Below, piece by piece: positions 7,595 through 37,065 of a stretch of DNA of 44,905 nt (within the stretch, counting starts at the first letter, position 1; every line of letters begins with the position of its first letter). The notes beneath the pieces are model-generated. The model worked only from the letters and a program-made list of their open reading frames with translations, did no database searches and was not told the origin of the DNA. Source of the DNA: Phycisphaerae bacterium (GTDB lineage: Bacteria; Planctomycetota; Phycisphaerae; JAJVII01); contig JAJVII010000053.1 of the NCBI GenBank assembly GCA_022072085.1, positions 1-44,905 of the forward strand. Reading direction: 5' to 3'. A program made the translations under genes and the position numbers.

Positions 7595-9985
7595 ATGAAT
7601 CGGCTGCGACTTTTCCTTCCGCTCCTGCTGGCGGGGCTGCTCACGTCGGCGGCCCGCGCTGAGCAGGTCATCGTGACACTTCAGCCGACCAACGGGTCGG
7701 GGCTGGCCCGGGCGGCCTGCCCGGTAAGTTGCGGCCTGCCGCTGCCGCCCGGCGTGGTGCAGGACGTCGATCGACTGGCGCTGCGGGCGGACGGCCGCAT
7801 CGTCCCCGCGCAGTTCGAGCCGATGATCCGCGACCCGAAGGACCGCTCCGTCCGCTGGATTCGCGTGGACACGGTGCTGGATGTCCCAGCCGACGGGACG
7901 CCCGCGACGCAGCCCGACGCATTAGCCGGGGCGGTCGAGCTGGTGCTCCTTGACGCGGCCGCGCCGCCGAGCGGGCCGGCATTGGCCAGCCTGGACGAGC
8001 AGTGGATCAACGTCAAGACCGGCGCGATGACGGTGATGATTTCACGCAAGCACTTCACCGGGATCGACCGGGCCTGGCTGCTGGCTCGGCCGGACCGGGC
8101 GATCGACCCGGACTACCAGGTCTTCGACGGCGTCGCCGGCGGGCCGAACCTCGGCGCCGAGCGCGTCGCCTACAGCAGCGGCCGCAGCCCGCGCGAGGAG
8201 ATCGCGCTGGAGCGCAACGGCCCGGTCGCCTGCACCGTCCGCGTCAGCGGCGCCCTGAGCGAGGCCGACAAGGAGGCCGCCGACTACCAGGTGCGCATGA
8301 CGTTCTACCGCGGCCTGCCGGTCGTCCGCATCAACTACACATGGCTGAAGCGCGAGGGCGAGCGGACGGAGTGGACGACCTTCACGCGGGCCGGCTTCGA
8401 GCTGCCGACCTGCCTGAAGCCGAAGGAGGGCGGCGGGTTCCACGTGATGTTCGGCGGCAGCGACCACGTCCACGAGGGCGAGGTCGAGGCGGCGCGGTCC
8501 GCGGCGTGGATATACCACGCCGAGCCGGATCGCTACGCGATGGGCGGCACGCTGGTGGGCAACGGCGACGGGCGGGCCCGCGACGTGATGACCACCGGCT
8601 GGGGCGCGGTGGACAACGGCACGGTCGGCCTGGCGGCTGGGCGGCGGTGGTTCTGGCAGATGACGCCTGCGGACGTGACCATCGGCACCGGGGCCGCGGG
8701 CGACCCGGCGCTGCCCGGCCCGCTGGTCAGCCTGGGCCTGTTCTCCGATCGTGGGGGCGGCAGCTTCCGCGTCTGCCCGGGCATGGCCCGCAGCCACGAG
8801 GTGTTCCTGACGCTGTTCGACGCGAAGAAACGCGATGGCGTCGCCCTGCGGATGCGCGACTGCACACAGCCAGTGATGCTGGTCGCCCCGCCGGCGTACT
8901 ACTGCCGACGGGCCAGGCCTGCCGACTCGCTGCTGCCGGCGTCCGAAGCCGAGCAGGAGTTCCAGGAGCCCGGGCTCAAGGCCGAGCGGACCGCCGATGA
9001 GCAGATCGAGCGGATGGTCGACTGGTACGACTTCCAGCGCAACAGCGTCACCTCGTCGCTGAGCTACTGCTACCGCACGTTCGGCGACTTCCCGGCCGGC
9101 CGGGTCGGGTCGGCCGACAGCGACGTGCTCTGGGCGGGCAACCCCTACGACTTCCCGCACGTCAACTATCAGCAGTGGCTGCGGACCGGCGACGCGAAAT
9201 ACTTCCGCGCGTTCTACGAGTCGGCGACGCAACTGCTGGACAGCCACACCGTGCTGGCTGACCCCGAGGCGGCCAACGTCGGGCGGCCGCGGCCATGTCC
9301 GGCGCAGGACCAGGTCATGCAGAACGGCCGGCCGTGGGTCTGCCCGTCGTTCCGCTACCTGCACGTGCGGGGCATGGTGGACCGGGCGCTGGTGTCAGCC
9401 GACCCATGGGCGCTGGAGGTCGCGTGGCGGGCGATGGAGCGGGCCGATGCCGACCACACGACCGACAGCCTGTACAACGAGCCGGCCAGCGTCGGCAACC
9501 AGATGTTGGCACTGGTCGAGGCGTGGCGGCTGAGCGGGCGGGGGGAATATCTCGACCACTGCAAGAAGATCGTCGGGTTCGCCGGGCGGTTCCAGGATCG
9601 CTTCGACGGGCTCTACTTCCCCCAGCCCGAGCAACTCGCCGACACGGCCGTTACCTGCGAGGGGATGCTGGCCTACTACCGCGTCACGCGCGACGCGGCC
9701 GCGCTGGACTCGGTGCGGCGGCACATCGAGGCGATGGTCAAAGGCAAGCTGTTTGATGACAAGGCGGTCCGCGCCGGGTCGGCGGCGTTCGCCTATCCGC
9801 TGGCCTATCTCGCCGGCGCCGACGGCAAGCCAGCGTGGCGTGACCTAGCGATCGGACTGTTGGGCCAGACCGAGCCGCTCAGTTCGCTATCGGACCGGGC
9901 GGCGGCGGTCCGCACCTGTCCGCAGGCGCTGTGGTTCATCACCCGCGACGGCGCCGACGAAGCCAACCCGGCCAAGGGCGGGTGA
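7595..9985 (+). CDS. Exported PcRGLX/YetA-like (PL26-related) protein
   Basis: 796 residues from the ATG at 7595, which gives a signal peptide MNRLRLFLPLLLAGLLTSAA ending near ARA. A GTG 18 bases earlier is the alternative. Residues ~25-130 match the N-terminal RIFT-barrel pattern of PcRGLX/YetA-like proteins (AACPVSCGLPLPPGVVQD and RSVRWIRVDTVLDV, where R-W-hydrophobic-x-V-D is characteristic). The middle is beta-rich. The C-terminal third looks like an alpha/alpha toroid (NPYDFPHVNYQQWLRTGDAK and DPWALEVAWRAMERADADHT). The founding enzyme is an exo-rhamnogalacturonan lyase of family PL26, acting on the pectin backbone. Substrate here is inferred from the fold only, and many planctomycete homologues are uncharacterised. 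The product would be handled in the periplasm. A KDG-kinase-like gene at 22987 could act further down the same route. Confidence 0.7.
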   Translation: MNRLRLFLPLLLAGLLTSAARAEQVIVTLQPTNGSGLARAACPVSCGLPLPPGVVQDVDRLALRADGRIVPAQFEPMIRDPKDRSVRWIRVDTVLDVPADGTPATQPDALAGAVELVLLDAAAPPSGPALASLDEQWINVKTGAMTVMISRKHFTGIDRAWLLARPDRAIDPDYQVFDGVAGGPNLGAERVAYSSGRSPREEIALERNGPVACTVRVSGALSEADKEAADYQVRMTFYRGLPVVRINYTWLKREGERTEWTTFTRAGFELPTCLKPKEGGGFHVMFGGSDHVHEGEVEAARSAAWIYHAEPDRYAMGGTLVGNGDGRARDVMTTGWGAVDNGTVGLAAGRRWFWQMTPADVTIGTGAAGDPALPGPLVSLGLFSDRGGGSFRVCPGMARSHEVFLTLFDAKKRDGVALRMRDCTQPVMLVAPPAYYCRRARPADSLLPASEAEQEFQEPGLKAERTADEQIERMVDWYDFQRNSVTSSLSYCYRTFGDFPAGRVGSADSDVLWAGNPYDFPHVNYQQWLRTGDAKYFRAFYESATQLLDSHTVLADPEAANVGRPRPCPAQDQVMQNGRPWVCPSFRYLHVRGMVDRALVSADPWALEVAWRAMERADADHTTDSLYNEPASVGNQMLALVEAWRLSGRGEYLDHCKKIVGFAGRFQDRFDGLYFPQPEQLADTAVTCEGMLAYYRVTRDAAALDSVRRHIEAMVKGKLFDDKAVRAGSAAFAYPLAYLAGADGKPAWRDLAIGLLGQTEPLSSLSDRAAAVRTCPQALWFITRDGADEANPAKGG

Positions 9986-10116
9986 GGGCAATGGCGAGCG
10001 CCGCGTGCCGAATGTCGAAGAGCGGGCTTCCCCCCGTGTCCCGCTGAAGCTTTCCACGCAGGTTGGACGATGAATTCCCTGGCGGGCGCGGGCTGATGCT
10101 CCGCGCCGAAGGCGAC

Positions 10117-10135: not shown

Positions 10136-11848
10136 ATGAGTCCTACCACAAAGCTGGGGCGCCTGCTGGTGCTGGGCGGAGCCAGCCGATTCGAGCAGTC
10201 GGACCTCATCCGCGAACTGGGTGAGCGGTTCGACCTGGTCATCGCCTCCAGCCTCCAGGAGGCCCTGGATCACCTGCGAGGCGAGTCCTTCGACGCCGTG
10301 CTCAGCGGCACGGGCGACTTCCTGCCGCTGGAGCGGGCGGCTGTCACCCAGCAGTCCACCGCGGTGCTCAACACGATCGGCCAGGGGGTGGGCATCGTTG
10401 ATGGCCAGGGCCGCGTGCTCTGGCAGAACCGCGTGCTCGCGGGCCTGGGCGCCCAGACGCAGCAGCTCGTCTGCGAGAACGCGGTCAAGGCATTGAACAA
10501 CTTCAAGCTTCGTAAGGGCGACCTGCCGCCGGTCGGCTCGCCAGGCCGCACGCGCCGCTTCTCGCTCGACAGCGACGGCCGCAGCTACGAGCTGATCGTC
10601 TCGCCGCTGGCCGAGGGACCGGCCGGCGGGCAGGACGCCGCCCCGATCAATCAGGTCGCTGCGGTCGTGCTGGACGTGACGGCCAGCCGCCGGTTGCAGC
10701 AGAAGCTCAACGCGATCGACCAGGCCGGTCGCGAGCTGGTTCGGCTGGAGGCCGAGTCGGTCGCCAAACTGAACATGCAGGAGCGACTCCAGTTGCTGGA
10801 GGAGCACATCCTGCGCTACACGCGCGAGCTGCTGAACTTCGACAACTTCGGCATCTGGGTGCTGGACAAGGCGAGCAACCGGTTGGAGATGGTGCTCAGC
10901 GACGGGTTCCCAACGTGGGTCGGCGACCTGGAGCTTTACGCCCTCGAGGAGGGCAACGGAATCACCGGCCACGTCGCCGCGACCGGCCGAAGCTACATCT
11001 GCGCCGACACGAGCAAGGACCCGCGCTACATCAGCGGCATTCGCGGCGGCCGCAGCAGCCTGACCGTGCCGCTGCGGCTTCAGGACCGCACCATCGGCGT
11101 GCTGAACGTCGAGAGCGCCGAGGCCGGATACTTCAGCGAGGACGACCGGCAGTTCGCCGAGATCTTCAGCCGATACATCGCCATCGCCCTGAACACGCTG
11201 AACCTGCTGGTGGTCGAGCGCTACACGACGACCGACCGGTTCGTCAGCAACGTCGCCGGCGAGATCGCCGCCCCGCTGGCCGACATCGTCGAGCGGGCCA
11301 GCACGCTGATCGAGGAGAATGTCGGGCACGACGCCCTGCGCAGCCGGCTGAACGAGATCATCGACCGGGTGACGGCCATCCGCCGAACGGTCGGCCAGGT
11401 GGCCGAGTCGCCGACCTCGATGCTCGGGCGTCGGCAGATCGAACACGCGGAGCACGACCCGAGGATGGCCGGCCGACGCGTGCTGGTCGCCGACGACAGC
11501 GAGTCGATCGTGCGCGACATCTGCGAGCTGCTGGGCAAGAAGGGCTGCATCACCGATGTCGCCCGCGACGGCGCCGAGGCGACGGCCATGGTCCGCAGCC
11601 GCGACTACGACCTGGTGCTCAGCGACATCCGCATGCCGCACGCCAGCGGCTACGACATATTCGTGGCCACGCGCAGCCGGTCGGCCGACACACCGGTGAT
11701 CCTGATGACCGGCTTCGGTTACGACCCCAAGCACTGCATCTTCAAGGCCCGCCAGGAGGGCGTCTTCGGCGTGATGTTCAAGCCCTTTCAGGCCGACGAG
11801 CTGGTCGCCAGGGTGCGCGAGGCGTTCGAGAAGAAATCCGGCAAATAG
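10136..11848 (+). CDS. Pseudo-receiver/PAS/GAF/receiver signalling protein without kinase domain
   Basis: 570 residues, cytosolic. In order: a receiver-like fold at ~5-70 lacking the phospho-acceptor Asp (FDAVLSGTGDF in place of FDxVLxD); a PAS-like segment at ~75-190 (VLNTIGQGVGIVDGQGRVLW); a GAF domain at ~205-360, ending YFSEDDRQFAEIFSRYIAIA; a helical pair at ~365-430 resembling a histidine-kinase DHp; and a C-terminal receiver at ~447-565 with VADDSES, phospho-acceptor Asp497 (LVLSDIRMPH) and Lys549 (MFKPFQ). The DHp-like helix reads DRFVSNVAGEIAAPLADI, where kinases have S-H-E-x-x-x-P-L, so the phosphorylated His is Gly375. No ATPase domain follows. It probably receives phosphate from another kinase. 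It is followed by a convergent LuxE-LuxC gene. Confidence 0.8.
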   Translation: MSPTTKLGRLLVLGGASRFEQSDLIRELGERFDLVIASSLQEALDHLRGESFDAVLSGTGDFLPLERAAVTQQSTAVLNTIGQGVGIVDGQGRVLWQNRVLAGLGAQTQQLVCENAVKALNNFKLRKGDLPPVGSPGRTRRFSLDSDGRSYELIVSPLAEGPAGGQDAAPINQVAAVVLDVTASRRLQQKLNAIDQAGRELVRLEAESVAKLNMQERLQLLEEHILRYTRELLNFDNFGIWVLDKASNRLEMVLSDGFPTWVGDLELYALEEGNGITGHVAATGRSYICADTSKDPRYISGIRGGRSSLTVPLRLQDRTIGVLNVESAEAGYFSEDDRQFAEIFSRYIAIALNTLNLLVVERYTTTDRFVSNVAGEIAAPLADIVERASTLIEENVGHDALRSRLNEIIDRVTAIRRTVGQVAESPTSMLGRRQIEHAEHDPRMAGRRVLVADDSESIVRDICELLGKKGCITDVARDGAEATAMVRSRDYDLVLSDIRMPHASGYDIFVATRSRSADTPVILMTGFGYDPKHCIFKARQEGVFGVMFKPFQADELVARVREAFEKKSGK

Positions 11849-11978: not shown

Positions 11979-14414
11979 TCAGCCCATCAACGATCCCAAT
12001 GCGGCGATGTTGTCGTTGAGCCAGCCGAAGGGGGGGCGCTGGAGGTCGCCGGGGGCGCAGATGTATGGGATGTGCAGTTCGTCGGCCAGGCGTCGGCGGA
12101 TCGACGCGTCGGCGACGCTCAGCGCGACGCCCTGGATGTGCGGCGCCAGCGGTGCGATCGCCCGCAGCGCCGCGTCGGCCGACGCGACGCGGGTCAGGAA
12201 CAGCGTCCGCCCGCCCGGGCCGATCTGCGGCGACGCGCCGACCGTCCCGACCAGCGTCCAGTCGAAGCGGTCGCGTCCGCCGGCCAGCAGCCAGGGGCGG
12301 GCGGCCTCGTCCGACGCGAGTCGGCGGATGCGCTGGGCCTCGCGCAGTTGGCGGATGGTCAGGAGTTGGCCCGGGTCGCGGCGACGCGACAGCGGCCAGC
12401 GGCTCGCCAATTCCGTCAGCGCCGCCGCCAGGTCGGTCGCGAAGTGCACGCAGGCGTCAGCCGACCCGGCCACGTAGACCTGCTGCGGCGAGAGGCATCC
12501 CTGCTGGTCATACATGGCCGCGTCGCGGGCGACGGCTGACGCGAGAAGTGGACTAGGTCCATTCTTCTCGAGCTCGATGATTTCCACGCTGGTCCGCGGG
12601 CCGTGGACGATCAGCGGCCGGCCCGCCTGCTCGCAGAGCGACCGCCAGTTCGTGATCGACTCGCCGCGGCCGAAGGCGACCACCGCGTCAACGGCCGACG
12701 CCAGTGCGGTGTTGTGCCGCTGCGACGCGCCCGGCCAGCGGACCACTGCGATCCGCCCGCCCAGTTCCGGCGACGCCGCGGCGATCGAGCGGGCCAACAG
12801 TTCGGGGAAGAGCGGGTCCTCGCTCGCCGGCTTGACGATCTGCGACGCCCCAGCCAGGCAGGCGGCGAAGATCGCCTGCACCGCCGGCGCCGGCACGTTG
12901 CCGGCCAGCACCTGCCCGATCAGCGGGAACGGCGTCGGACGCTCCCCGGCCTCATCGCGGACCAAAGCCCGCAGGGCTTCGGCGGTCACCGGGGCGAACA
13001 TCAGCTCCAGGGCGTCGGCCCACATCGCCCGGCTGAACGGCGAGCGGTCTGGCAGGTGGTCGAGGGCCTCGCGGCGGATCGGGTCGGCGTCGTCCAGCCA
13101 GCGGCGGGTGACCTCGGCCAGCGGTCCGACGCGGGCGAGCATCGCGTCGGCGGAATCAGCCGGCGCCGCCCGCGATCGAAGGTCGCCTGCGATGCGGGCG
13201 ATTATCTCGGGATCGGCGACATCCCCCTCTGCGGGCGGCGTCACGGCCTCGGCGGGAAGAAGTGGACCAGGTCCACTTTTCAGGAGGTCGTCGGCGGAGA
13301 GCGAGCAGCCCTTGGGCGGGGCGGCAGGGGCCCGGCCGATCAGCGCGAAGGCGCGATCCCCGCGAACGACGCCCAGGTCCTCGGTCTGCACGGCGATGGC
13401 TGAGCCGCGGTTGGCCAGGTCGATGAACTTCAGCAGGCCCGGCTCACCCGCGGGCACGGGCCGCCGTGTCTCGGGATCGATCGCGGCGACGCGCGTCCAG
13501 GGCGGGCCGGAGAAGACGGGCGTTCGAAGTTCGAAGTTCGAAGTTCGAAGCCCGAGGGGAAGGTCCGGCGTCGCGCTCTTCTCCGACTTCGAACTTCGAA
13601 CCTCGAACCTCGAACGGGCATAGAACTGCGACGACAGCTCGCACATGCCATACTCGCTGACGACGGCTTCGGGGGTGACGGCGAAGGCGTCGGCCAGGCG
13701 GAGGTAGAGTTCGTCGCGGTCCCAGGCGGCATGGCGGCCCTTGTGCCCGCCGGTTTCCATGATGCGGCTGCCCGGCGGCAGGGGGAGCGTGCGCGGGCCG
13801 ATGGCCTCCAGCAGCCGCACCCAGCCCAGGGCGGTCGAAGCCAGGACGGCTGGTCCGTCCAGGTCGCTGACGGCGGCGGCGAAGTCGTCGGCCAGCAGTT
13901 CCCCGTCGTGAACGAAGAAGCCCGACGCGCCAGCCTGGCCGAATCGCTCGACGACTTCGCCCATCATGAAGCTGAGCGAACCGTCGGGGGCCTGCTCGGG
14001 CGAGGGCATGAGCACGAGGATCGGGGCGCGGGTGGCGCCGGCCGGCATCAGGGCCTCGGCGAAGGGCCCGGCCAGGGCGGCCCGATAGAGGTCGAGCGTG
14101 TCAAAGGCGTGCCGACTTCGCCCGCCGCCTGTTGTGCCGCTGGAGTGGAACGTGCGGACGATCCGGGCGGCCGGGAAACAACGAAGGTCGGCCAGCCGCC
14201 ATGCGACCGGCCAGACGGCCGGGATGTCGGATGGGTCGCAGACGCGACCCGGCGGCGCGCCCAGGTCGTCGCAGAGGGCCCGGTAGACGTCGTTGCGCTC
14301 GTACTGGAAGGCGAACAGGTCCAGCGCCAGGCCGTCGAAGCCAGTGGCGTCGCCGGCGGCGATCAGCGCGAGGATGCGGGCGTCGAGTTCGTGCGTGCGG
14401 GCGTCCTGCTCCAT
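11979..14414 (-). CDS. LuxE-LuxC fusion: acyl-protein synthetase plus acyl-CoA reductase
   Basis: 811 residues from the ATG at 14414 (MEQDARTHELDARILALIAA), which I prefer to the 14504 frame start because the extra 30 residues are arginine/proline-rich and overlap the divergent promoter region. Residues ~1-365 are an acyl-protein synthetase (LuxE) domain: FHSSGTTGGGRSRHAFDTLD, METGGHKGRH and VVSEYGMCELSSQFY. Residues ~440-811 are an acyl-CoA reductase (LuxC) domain with PFPLIGQVLAGNVPAPAVQA and the nucleophile Cys640 in DQQGCLSPQQVY. Together they would activate a fatty acid and reduce it to an aldehyde. No luciferase genes are nearby. A 32-residue repeat-derived insertion (~267-298) interrupts the LuxE part in frame. 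The gene is divergent from the ABC exporter. Confidence 0.85.
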   Translation of the reverse strand: MEQDARTHELDARILALIAAGDATGFDGLALDLFAFQYERNDVYRALCDDLGAPPGRVCDPSDIPAVWPVAWRLADLRCFPAARIVRTFHSSGTTGGGRSRHAFDTLDLYRAALAGPFAEALMPAGATRAPILVLMPSPEQAPDGSLSFMMGEVVERFGQAGASGFFVHDGELLADDFAAAVSDLDGPAVLASTALGWVRLLEAIGPRTLPLPPGSRIMETGGHKGRHAAWDRDELYLRLADAFAVTPEAVVSEYGMCELSSQFYARSRFEVRSSKSEKSATPDLPLGLRTSNFELRTPVFSGPPWTRVAAIDPETRRPVPAGEPGLLKFIDLANRGSAIAVQTEDLGVVRGDRAFALIGRAPAAPPKGCSLSADDLLKSGPGPLLPAEAVTPPAEGDVADPEIIARIAGDLRSRAAPADSADAMLARVGPLAEVTRRWLDDADPIRREALDHLPDRSPFSRAMWADALELMFAPVTAEALRALVRDEAGERPTPFPLIGQVLAGNVPAPAVQAIFAACLAGASQIVKPASEDPLFPELLARSIAAASPELGGRIAVVRWPGASQRHNTALASAVDAVVAFGRGESITNWRSLCEQAGRPLIVHGPRTSVEIIELEKNGPSPLLASAVARDAAMYDQQGCLSPQQVYVAGSADACVHFATDLAAALTELASRWPLSRRRDPGQLLTIRQLREAQRIRRLASDEAARPWLLAGGRDRFDWTLVGTVGASPQIGPGGRTLFLTRVASADAALRAIAPLAPHIQGVALSVADASIRRRLADELHIPYICAPGDLQRPPFGWLNDNIAALGSLMG
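13521..13616. repeat. 96-base inverted repeat inserted in frame in the LuxE domain
   Basis: The left arm 13521-13550 is cgttcgaag followed by repeated ttcgaag words. The right arm 13587-13616 is its reverse complement with two mismatches. The loop is 13551-13586 (36 bases). The whole unit is 96 bases, a multiple of three, and reads without a stop as RFEVRSSKSEK...LRTSNFELRT in the LuxE-LuxC protein. LuxE relatives pass from SSQFY straight to the P-x-W segment (here PPWTRVAAID), so this stretch looks inserted. Confidence 0.85.
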
Positions 14415-24125: not shown

Positions 24126-26052
24126 GCCGGACATGGCACGGACCTGGCGGCGGATGCGAATCGCGCGGCGGCGGACGGCCCGTCTGTACGCGATCCATTT
24201 GTCCGCGGCCACCTGGATCGCGCTGGCGTTGCAGGCGATCTTCGTGTCGGCCTACCTCATGGACCCGCTCTACGAGGATGTGCGGCTGCTGCCGGTCAGC
24301 GGCAAGGTCGCGATGGTGTTGGCCAACGCGGCGGCCGTCGTGCTCTGGTTTCAGCTCGTCGGGCTGCTGCTGTGGCGGTGGAACCGGGCGCTGCGCGCGG
24401 GCAACCTGTTCAGCCTGCTCGGGCTGCTGGCGCTGAACGCCTGGCACCTCCAGCGCGGCTGGGCGCTGGACTACACCGTTGCGGTCGAGAACGTCAGCCT
24501 GCTGCGATTCGCCGCGTCGTGGCGGCTGATCGCCGAGCATTTCACGCCGTTGCGGCTGGCGATCTACGCCGGCGGCGCAGCCGCGCTGGCGGGTCTTGCG
24601 GCGCTGTCGCCGTGGATGGGCCGATGGCCCCGTCCGCGGCGGCCGATCGCGACGGCGCTGCTCACGCTGGCGGCACTGGCGGGTCTGATCGTCAGCCCCT
24701 GGTCGGCGCACAACGAGGCGACTTACCTGGCGCGGACGGCGTGGGACTTCTATGTCCCGTCGATCGACTACCCCGACCTGCCGGCTGAGCACTATCCCTA
24801 CGTCGTGCCCGCGGCGACCGACCTGCCCACTGCGAGGCAGAATCCGCACCGGCCCAACGTATTCATCATCACGATGGAGTCGTTCAACGGCCTGTTCGCC
24901 GGCGCCCGCACCCCCGACGGGCGGGAGTACACGCCGTTCTTCAACGAGCTGTGCGCCCGCGGCCTGTACGTCGAGAAGTTCTACGGCGACTCCGTGCAGA
25001 CGCCGCGCGGCCACTTCGCGATCATGGCCTCCGTGCTGCCCAGCTTCCGCCGCAAGGTGTCGCGGCAGTATCCGAACCTGCACGTTCACTCGCTGGCCCA
25101 CATCCTGCGCGACCGCGGCTATCACACGCTGTTTTTCAAGGCCTACGAGAACCTCGAATTCGACAGCACCGAATCGTTCACGCGGATGCTGGGCTTCGAC
25201 GTGCGGCGGGCCACGACGCGCGGCGAACTGACCGACGAGGAGAAGGAGCACGTCTGGGGCTGGGGCGTCCAGGACGACATCTTCTACCGCAAGTTTTTCG
25301 ACTGGCTCGACGCCGACCGGGCGAAGCGGCTGGCCGAGGGGCCGGCCGGCGGCGACACGCGATACTTCGCGATGCTGCTGACCGTCTCGCACCACATGAA
25401 CTTCAACAAGCTGCCGCGCGACCAGCAATATCTCTATCCCGGCACGACCGACCGCCGCGAGCAGTTCGCCAACTCGATCTACCTGGCCGATCGGTATCTC
25501 CGCGAGTTCTTCGGCCAGTTGGAGCGGCGCGACTGGCTGGCGGGCAGCATCGTCATCGTCACCGGCGACCACTCGTTCCCCGCGGGCGAGCACGGGTATT
25601 TCGTCAACGAGCACGGCTTCTACGAAGAGAACTTCCGCACGCCGTTCGTGATGATCTGGGACGGCCACGTCGCTCCGCGCACCGTCAGCCGAGTCGCCTA
25701 CTGCCAGCTCGACATCGCCCCGACGGTGCTGGATGCGATGGACATCCGGGCGGCCAACCACTTCCGCGGCCGCTCGATGCTGCCCGGCGACGCCGCTCCG
25801 CAGACGCCCATCTTCCTGATCCAGCCCTACGGCGGCACGTTCCTGTGCGTGCTCGATTGGCCGATGAAGTACGTCCGCTCGCTGCGGACGCGCGTGGAAC
25901 TGATGTTCGACCTGTCAGCCGACCCGATGGAGCGCAAGAACGTGATCGGGGATTGCGACGGGACGCCCGAACTGTCGCGTTTGCGCGGCGGGATCGACAC
26001 GATCCTGATCAACCAACGCCTGATCGAAACCGACCGCCTCTGGCCGCCGTAG
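24124..26052 (+). CDS. LtaS-like phosphoglycerol transferase / sulfatase-fold membrane enzyme (copy 2)
   Basis: 642 residues from ATG 24124, or 639 from ATG 24133; neither has a ribosome site. Same architecture as copy 1: about five membrane helices, then the phosphatase-like domain with Glu252 (FIITMESFNGLF), Thr293 (SVQTPRGH) and Asp482-His483 (VTGDHSFPAG). Shared blocks with copy 1 include VWGWGVQDD, QQYLYPG, YCQLDIAPT and RSMLPGDAAP, so the two arose by duplication. Differences lie mainly in the membrane part and in the acceptor-side loops, suggesting different substrates. Twelve bases separate its stop from that of the convergent next gene. Confidence 0.8.
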   Translation: MPDMARTWRRMRIARRRTARLYAIHLSAATWIALALQAIFVSAYLMDPLYEDVRLLPVSGKVAMVLANAAAVVLWFQLVGLLLWRWNRALRAGNLFSLLGLLALNAWHLQRGWALDYTVAVENVSLLRFAASWRLIAEHFTPLRLAIYAGGAAALAGLAALSPWMGRWPRPRRPIATALLTLAALAGLIVSPWSAHNEATYLARTAWDFYVPSIDYPDLPAEHYPYVVPAATDLPTARQNPHRPNVFIITMESFNGLFAGARTPDGREYTPFFNELCARGLYVEKFYGDSVQTPRGHFAIMASVLPSFRRKVSRQYPNLHVHSLAHILRDRGYHTLFFKAYENLEFDSTESFTRMLGFDVRRATTRGELTDEEKEHVWGWGVQDDIFYRKFFDWLDADRAKRLAEGPAGGDTRYFAMLLTVSHHMNFNKLPRDQQYLYPGTTDRREQFANSIYLADRYLREFFGQLERRDWLAGSIVIVTGDHSFPAGEHGYFVNEHGFYEENFRTPFVMIWDGHVAPRTVSRVAYCQLDIAPTVLDAMDIRAANHFRGRSMLPGDAAPQTPIFLIQPYGGTFLCVLDWPMKYVRSLRTRVELMFDLSADPMERKNVIGDCDGTPELSRLRGGIDTILINQRLIETDRLWPP

Positions 26053-33468: not shown

Positions 33469-34542
33469 TCAGAACTTCTGGCAGTGCGAGCAGTAGTGGG
33501 TCGATCGGCCGGCGACGGTGGCGTGGCGGATGGGGTGGGCGCAGGCGGGGCAGGGGGCGTCCGGGCGGCCATAGACCTTCAATGCGAGCTGGAACCAGCC
33601 CGGCCGATCTTCGGCGTTGCGGTAGTCGCGCAGCGTCGAGCCGCCGAGGCGGATGGACTCGTTCAGGCGGTCGCGCAACGCGGCCCACAGCCGCTCCCGC
33701 CGCGGCCGGCTGAGCCGGTCGGCGCGGGCCCGCGGGTGGATGCCGGCTGCAAACAGCGACTCGTCGGCGTAGATGTTGCCCACGCCGGCGATGGCGGTCT
33801 GGTCCAGCAGCAGCGCCTTGATCTGCCGCCGGGCTGAGCCCAGCAGGGCGGCGAAGTCGCCGCTCGAGATAACCAGCGGGTCGGGCCCGAGCTTCGCGGT
33901 CGGGTCGGCTGGGCCGCCGGACCCCTCCAGCAGCCAGAGCCCGCCCATGCACCAGCGCGGGTTGACGAAGCGGAGGTCGAGGGGCGCTGCGGAATGCGGA
34001 GTGCGGAGTGTGGAATGGGGGGGAACCCTCACCCCCAACCCCTCTCCCTGGGAGGGAGAGGGGGGACTGAGGGCCACTTGAAAATGCGTGTGGGGCGCAA
34101 CCGGGCGGTCGGAGGGGAGGACGATGAGGCGGCCGGCCATGCCGAGGTGAACGACCAGAAGAAGTGCTGAGTGGGGAGTGCTGAGTGCCGAGGGGGAAGT
34201 GCTGAGTGCTGAGTGGGGAGTGCTGAGTGGTGAGTGACGCGGAGAAGAACCCTTGCCGCCAGCGTCTCTCCCTGGTCGGGAGAGGGGAGATGTATCCGCG
34301 ACCGTCCGGTCGCGGTTCGGGAACAAGAAAGAGGGAAGACGAGGAGACAAACCGATCCGGATGTACTTGCCGACTCGCGAGACGTATTCAACTTCGCAGC
34401 CAGTCACGGCCTGGAACTTCGACCCGCCTTTGGCGGTACGCAGACTACGGGAGTCGAGCAGCCGCACGGTTCCAAGCTCCGCGCCCAGCAGAACCTGGCG
34501 CAGGCCGCGAACGACGGTTTCGACCTCGGGAAGTTCAGGCAT
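33469..34542 (-). CDS. mutM: Formamidopyrimidine-DNA glycosylase with two in-frame insertions
   Basis: 357 residues against 270-290 usual. It removes oxidised purines (8-oxoguanine, Fapy) from DNA and cuts the strand. Conserved features: N-terminal catalytic PELPEVETVVRGL (Pro2, Glu3), VVHLGMAGRL (130-139), the catalytic-region RFVNPRW (191-197), the H2TH motif IAGVGNIYADESLFAAGIHP (251-270), and a C-terminal zinc finger CPAC...CSHC with QKF at the end. Two low-complexity insertions interrupt it: residues ~66-126, between KYIRIGL and LLLVVHLG, and ~160-187, between THFQVAL and LDLRFVN. They encode repeat words (LSTPHSALST, SPSQGEGLGVRV) without breaking the frame. Catalytic parts are intact, so activity is plausible but unproven. 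Confidence 0.85.
   Translation of the reverse strand: MPELPEVETVVRGLRQVLLGAELGTVRLLDSRSLRTAKGGSKFQAVTGCEVEYVSRVGKYIRIGLSPRLPSFLFPNRDRTVADTSPLSRPGRDAGGKGSSPRHSPLSTPHSALSTSPSALSTPHSALLLVVHLGMAGRLIVLPSDRPVAPHTHFQVALSPPSPSQGEGLGVRVPPHSTLRTPHSAAPLDLRFVNPRWCMGGLWLLEGSGGPADPTAKLGPDPLVISSGDFAALLGSARRQIKALLLDQTAIAGVGNIYADESLFAAGIHPRARADRLSRPRRERLWAALRDRLNESIRLGGSTLRDYRNAEDRPGWFQLALKVYGRPDAPCPACAHPIRHATVAGRSTHYCSHCQKF
33982..34065. repeat. Repeat insertion 2 in mutM
   Basis: About 84 bases, multiple of three. It contains a perfect 11-bp stem (cccctctccct 34039-34049, loop ggg, agggagagggg 34053-34063) next to a ccctcacccccaac stretch, plus gcggagtg words. It translates as PPSPSQGEGLGVRVPPHST and onwards. 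It sits between two strands of the DNA-binding core. Confidence 0.8.
34165..34347. repeat. Repeat insertion 1 in mutM
   Basis: About 183 bases (61 codons, edges estimated). It contains tandem words of the type gtgctgagt and gtggggagtgctgag (34161-34240), a stem ctctccc/gggagag (34266-34284), and a perfect 9-bp palindrome (ccgcgaccg 34296-34304, loop tc, cggtcgcgg 34307-34315). It translates to serine/threonine/proline-rich sequence. The same word family is present after moxR at 35927-35968. Confidence 0.8.
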
Positions 34543-36934: not shown

Positions 36935-36936
36935 GC

Positions 36937-37046
36937 AATGTCGAATGACGAATGGCGAACGTCGAATGTCCGGAAGGCGGCGATCCGGCCTTCCGGCGAC
37001 GCACGTTCCTCCCTCAATCGACATTCGACACTCGACATTCGACATT
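36937..37046. repeat. GTCGAATG-type inverted repeat between DUF58 and BatA-like genes
   Basis: The left arm 36937-36970 starts aatgtcgaatg and ends gtcgaatgtc. The right arm 37018-37046 (tcgacattcgacactcgaca onward) is its imperfect reverse complement. A nested hairpin ccggaagg (36970-36977) with ccttccgg (36989-36996) sits inside. It begins three bases after the DUF58 stop and ends 19 bases before the next start. Confidence 0.75.
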
Positions 37047-37065
37047 AAGAGGCGCGACGAATCTC

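Follow-up and report, generated by a model that had tools for sequence, protein, structure and literature searches.

The window is the whole of contig JAJVII010000053.1 (44,905 nucleotides) of a Phycisphaerae bacterium, whose genome is called the home genome below. Its reverse strand carries a mutM gene in which two repeat-derived stretches are read in frame. The gene was delimited from its open reading frame, Pfam, NCBIfam and an AlphaFold2 model, and the inserts from alignment with relatives and pLDDT, together with the coding score for insert 1.

33469-34542, minus strand: mutM (Fpg), 357 amino acids, a single open frame with two in-frame repeat-derived inserts
34165-34347, minus strand: insert 1, amino acids 66-126, 61 codons, missing from relatives in other families of the class
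34247-34290, minus strand: REP-like palindromic unit of insert 1, with the decayed tail AAGGGTTCTTC
34163-34236, minus strand: heptad array of insert 1, 10.6 copies (Tandem Repeats Finder)
33979-34068, minus strand: insert 2, amino acids 159-188, ~28-30 codons, missing or represented by a few residues at most in relatives of other families
34023-34066, minus strand: REP-like palindromic unit of insert 2, with the complete tail GGGGTGAGGGTT
33984-34018, minus strand: heptads of insert 2, on the coding strand CATTCCA CACTCCG CACTCCG CATTCCG

The N-terminal PELPE, the H2TH domain and the C4 zinc finger identify the product as a MutM/Fpg protein; it matched all three Pfam families (Fapy_DNA_glyco, H2TH and zf-FPG_IleRS) and scored above the cut-off of the NCBIfam equivalog PRK01103. 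Alignment placed P2/E3, K59, M135 and R196, the latter two being the void-filling Met and Arg, while the Phe is absent; the void-filling loop DPRRFG is replaced by NPRWCMG, which is longer by one residue. The preliminary description, in which all catalytic motifs were listed as present, is thus right for these residues and the zinc finger and wrong for the loop. In both available family members, home and sister, the loop reads NPRWCMGGLW (amino acids 194-203, window 33934-33963), whereas that of the other aligned MutMs is D-x-R-x-FG or near it. A search of the home genome for a second, insert-free mutM found none.

The two in-frame extra stretches described earlier, of ~61 and ~28-30 codons, were borne out by the reading frame, the family models and the alignment, as were the CTCTCCC/GGGAGAG stems and 7-nt repeats in both. 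Each insert is a copy of the same composite repeat, a palindromic unit followed by (CAYTCNN)n heptads, in identical order and orientation. The two palindromic units are 80% identical across 44 nt, that of insert 1 being decayed. The heptads of insert 1, GTGCTGA on the plus strand, read CACTCAG on the coding strand and encode an HSALSTQ cycle. Insert 1 had a coding score of -1.18, compared with +0.05 and +0.04 for its two flanks, and its part at ~34290-34347 was assigned no match to a repeat.

Both components are dispersed through the home genome, in agreement with the proposed derivation of the inserts from repeats. The palindrome with exact stems, CCTCTCCC..GGGAGAGG, occurs in 56 copies genome-wide (none for a reversed-pattern control), and CACTCAG heptads gave 49+125 matches (174, overlapping) against 0+2 in the control. 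A sample of 824 kb, made up of stretches picked for containing repeats, held 88 heptad arrays and 48 palindromes, as opposed to 2 and 1, respectively, in pair-shuffled sequence. Palindromes were counted with exact stems only; a model allowing one mismatch per arm returned noise (81 versus 92 in shuffled sequence). From aligned copies, the unit is ~57 bp long and has the form CTCTTCTCC-CTCTCCC-N-GGGAGAG-GGNCGGGGTGAGGGT with a one-sided tail, GGGGTGAGGGT, and units are frequently paired in inverted orientation ~110 bp apart. Heptads lie on the tail side in 10 of 42 tailed, oriented palindromes and at none of 42 random sites. Rfam returned chance-level matches only, and a literature search with the stem sequence as text query found nothing relevant. 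Across the class the CTCTCCC palindrome is patchy, with 274, 262, 84 and 91 copies in the relatives G002, G025, G059 and G003 and zero copies in 34 of 61 genomes.

Most aligned MutMs of the class are 267-315 amino acids long, compared with 357 for the home protein. Both inserts are missing from ~30 MutMs belonging to other families, in which the site of insert 2 holds a few residues at most. The only relative from the same family in the comparison, a sister genus (L004), is likewise extended at each of the two turns. Over the body of the protein its MutM shares 63% identity with the home one; in the insert 1 region identity is 9/46, which is at chance level. There, turn 1 is occupied by a palindrome pair, CACCCGCCC..CGGGTGTC, unrelated to the home palindrome, with 23+22 matches in the L004 genome as against 3+3 in the home one and 1+1 for the controls. 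Turn 2 holds heptads resembling those of the home gene in unit and orientation, with no CTCTCCC unit. Turn 2 may therefore have been occupied before the genera split, whereas the repeats at turn 1 are genus-specific. The earlier description of the two insertions as independent is only partly right: both are copies of one composite unit, and as both turns are filled in the sister too, their occupancy may predate the split. Within the family, of which L004 was the one relative compared, no mutM with an empty site turned up, and a scan of genome contigs with the two mutMs for a closer relative found none.

An AlphaFold2 model built from 32 sequences had the MutM fold (pLDDT 83.8, pTM 0.82), and its best matches in the PDB were experimental structures of MutM (highest TMt 0.91, lowest E 1.8e-27). 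Both inserts loop out of the model, as low-confidence loops at beta-hairpin turns of the N-terminal domain. Insert 1 lies between strands at amino acids 60-67 and 127-132, with pLDDT below 50 for amino acids 83-121, and insert 2 lies between strands at 152-159 and 188-193, with pLDDT of ~63-66. These low values are consistent with flexible loops and fall short of proving disorder.

In-frame repeats are not confined to mutM. In the 824 kb, genes were called with a home-made caller that is biased to open frames, and the proportion of in-frame cases is therefore no evidence by itself. Of 98 classifiable repeat islands, 14 were read through in frame within genes, two of which (L148 and L159) resemble ordinary coding sequence, and three lay in genes without a clean frame; the mutM islands were automatically classed as gene-edge, the flanks between the inserts being short. 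About 12 other genes carry in-frame repeats, among them those for MnmG, a NuoN-like subunit, E2, RACo, peptidase U32, an FAD-CCG oxidase and LuxEC. The LuxEC case lies in the window:

13517-13618, minus strand: inverted TTCGAAG heptads, in frame, within a LuxE-LuxC-like gene (11979-14414); at this point the turn is short in the sister genus

For three of these genes (NuoN-like, LuxEC and FAD-CCG) the sister genus has a clean gap at the insertion point. In mutM itself, for which a comparison with empty sites in sister genomes had been proposed, both turns are filled in the sister. MnmG is a weaker case than the three clean gaps, its repeat site being a length-variable loop among relatives. Overall, repeat islands are strongly depleted in genes, 17 of 98 lying there in sequence that is 86% coding. 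One PD40 beta-propeller gene carries two similar inverted palindrome pairs in frame, at 9873-10009 and 10344-10480 of the stretch L147, 471 bp apart. In the window, ARAGORN placed a tRNA-Arg, possibly false, at 25851-25925 within a called coding gene on the same strand (24154-26052).

We conclude that the mutM inserts are very probably dispersed non-autonomous repeats that were tolerated because they landed in frame in flexible turns. The ~57-bp REP-like unit and its downstream (CAYTCNN)n array would together form a non-autonomous dispersed repeat of the home genome, copies of which would have landed in, or grown at, two beta-hairpin turns of the N-terminal domain. They would persist where length and phase preserve the frame and the sense strand happens to be free of stops, the Ser/Pro/Gly-rich peptide keeping outside the MutM fold, and selection would have purged harmful insertions from genes. 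That insertion took place in mutM itself is suggested by the sequences of other families and of the other decorated genes, and the inserts are presumably translated, with MutM activity retained. Mobility of the repeat, raised as a possibility in the preliminary description, is plausible from the dispersed copies and the empty sister sites in other genes, but no dedicated transposase tied to the repeat was found: the home genome has three Y1_Tnp matches, and the fetched flanks of two of these transposase-like genes contained no palindrome. No target-site duplication was demonstrated for the mutM inserts.

A turn already bearing a tolerated insert would accept further repeats, which would account for the different turn 1 repeats in the two genera. 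It is conceivable, though on balance somewhat doubtful, that both turns have served as standing landing pads, in which later unrelated repeats nest in or replace earlier ones and genera swap repeat-coded loops while the fold stays. Turn 1 is length-variable in MutM generally, so that an older loop there may have given way to the repeats.

The same variability of turn 1 across bacteria, together with its length in both family members, would suit ancient ordinary family loops that drifted to low complexity or grew by slippage with no insertion of a dispersed element. Slippage can expand heptads, but it is unable to make tailed palindromic units that match dozens of copies elsewhere, and the different endemic palindrome pair at turn 1 of the sister is likewise beyond it; we regard this explanation as unlikely. 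More improbable still is that the inserts were selected for an effect on MutM, such as lower repair and a mutator phenotype, or on its mRNA. Intragenic REPs are known from uvrA and uvrB, each hit twice, from recB, at nearly the same position in two species of Xanthomonas, and from further repair genes, and it has been speculated that they have a mutator role (PMC3733652); the altered NPRWCMG loop is also common to both family members. Against this, the insert sequences are unlike between the genera and their low pLDDT gives no hint of an ordered addition. Moreover, only one of the ~12 decorated genes is a repair gene, a count relevant to the speculation in the literature that such genes are preferentially hit.

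The repeats had also been suggested to be selected for frame neutrality. Because 7 leaves a remainder of 1 on division by 3, a heptad array gives the same seven-residue cycle in every frame, which helps tolerance, and the heptads that lie within genes have the CAYTC sense in five of six cases. The stop content of heptads and palindromic units nevertheless equals that of dinucleotide shuffles; as this is what composition predicts, there is no sign of such selection. In its forward orientation the palindromic unit is even more closed than its shuffles (2.0 versus 2.45 of three frames open). Another REP-rich genome of the class has 0 of 16 elements in genes versus 6 of 38, a difference that is not significant (p = 0.16). 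The repeats are tolerated, with the frame kept and at loops, as was proposed, and random insertion followed by ordinary purifying selection accounts for the data. Selection of the units for frame neutrality, enabling life inside genes, is hardly credible given their stop content and their depletion in genes.

Events of this type are already known. Rickettsia palindromic elements (RPEs) are short dispersed palindromes that have inserted into numerous unrelated genes without breaking the frame (PMC10969869), and by this description the home repeat is alike; it differs from the ~150-bp RPEs in its ~57-bp unit, the lack of a tag, the attached heptads, the GC-rich genome and the class of its host. 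RPE-4 and RPE-6 bear CGTC tags (PMC3733652). With the GTAG/CGTC REPs the home unit shares inverted dimers and in-frame presence within coding regions (PMC3733652), but neither tag occurs in the aligned copies, which carry the tail given above, and no unit was seen in the fetched flanks of the transposase genes examined. As it lacks the tag and no transposase was linked to it, we placed it in neither REP super-family. What is new here is the presence in mutM of a REP that is untagged and joined to heptads, and the loop occupancy common to two genera. Small palindromic repeats that invade proteins in frame are best known from Rickettsia, and the present case adds another lineage and repeat type. 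With the same two turns of one gene occupied in sister genera, and by unrelated repeats at turn 1, it offers a natural test of how loops become repeat sinks.

The heptads are comparable to heptameric STRR-like repeats, namely the cyanobacterial heptanucleotides and the GGGAATC heptamers of Xanthomonas (PMC4692102), in forming dispersed 7-nt tandem arrays above chance, mostly intergenic and sometimes inverted. Unlike these, the home heptads have the unit CAYTCNN, are joined to a palindromic unit and occur in frame within genes. Elsewhere in the window, inverted ATTCGAC-type heptad arrays flank a 46-nt centre in intergenic sequence (36936-37048), and 18-nt tandem repeats with a 9-nt register encode a tail rich in Gly and Gln where the contig ends (44646-44905).
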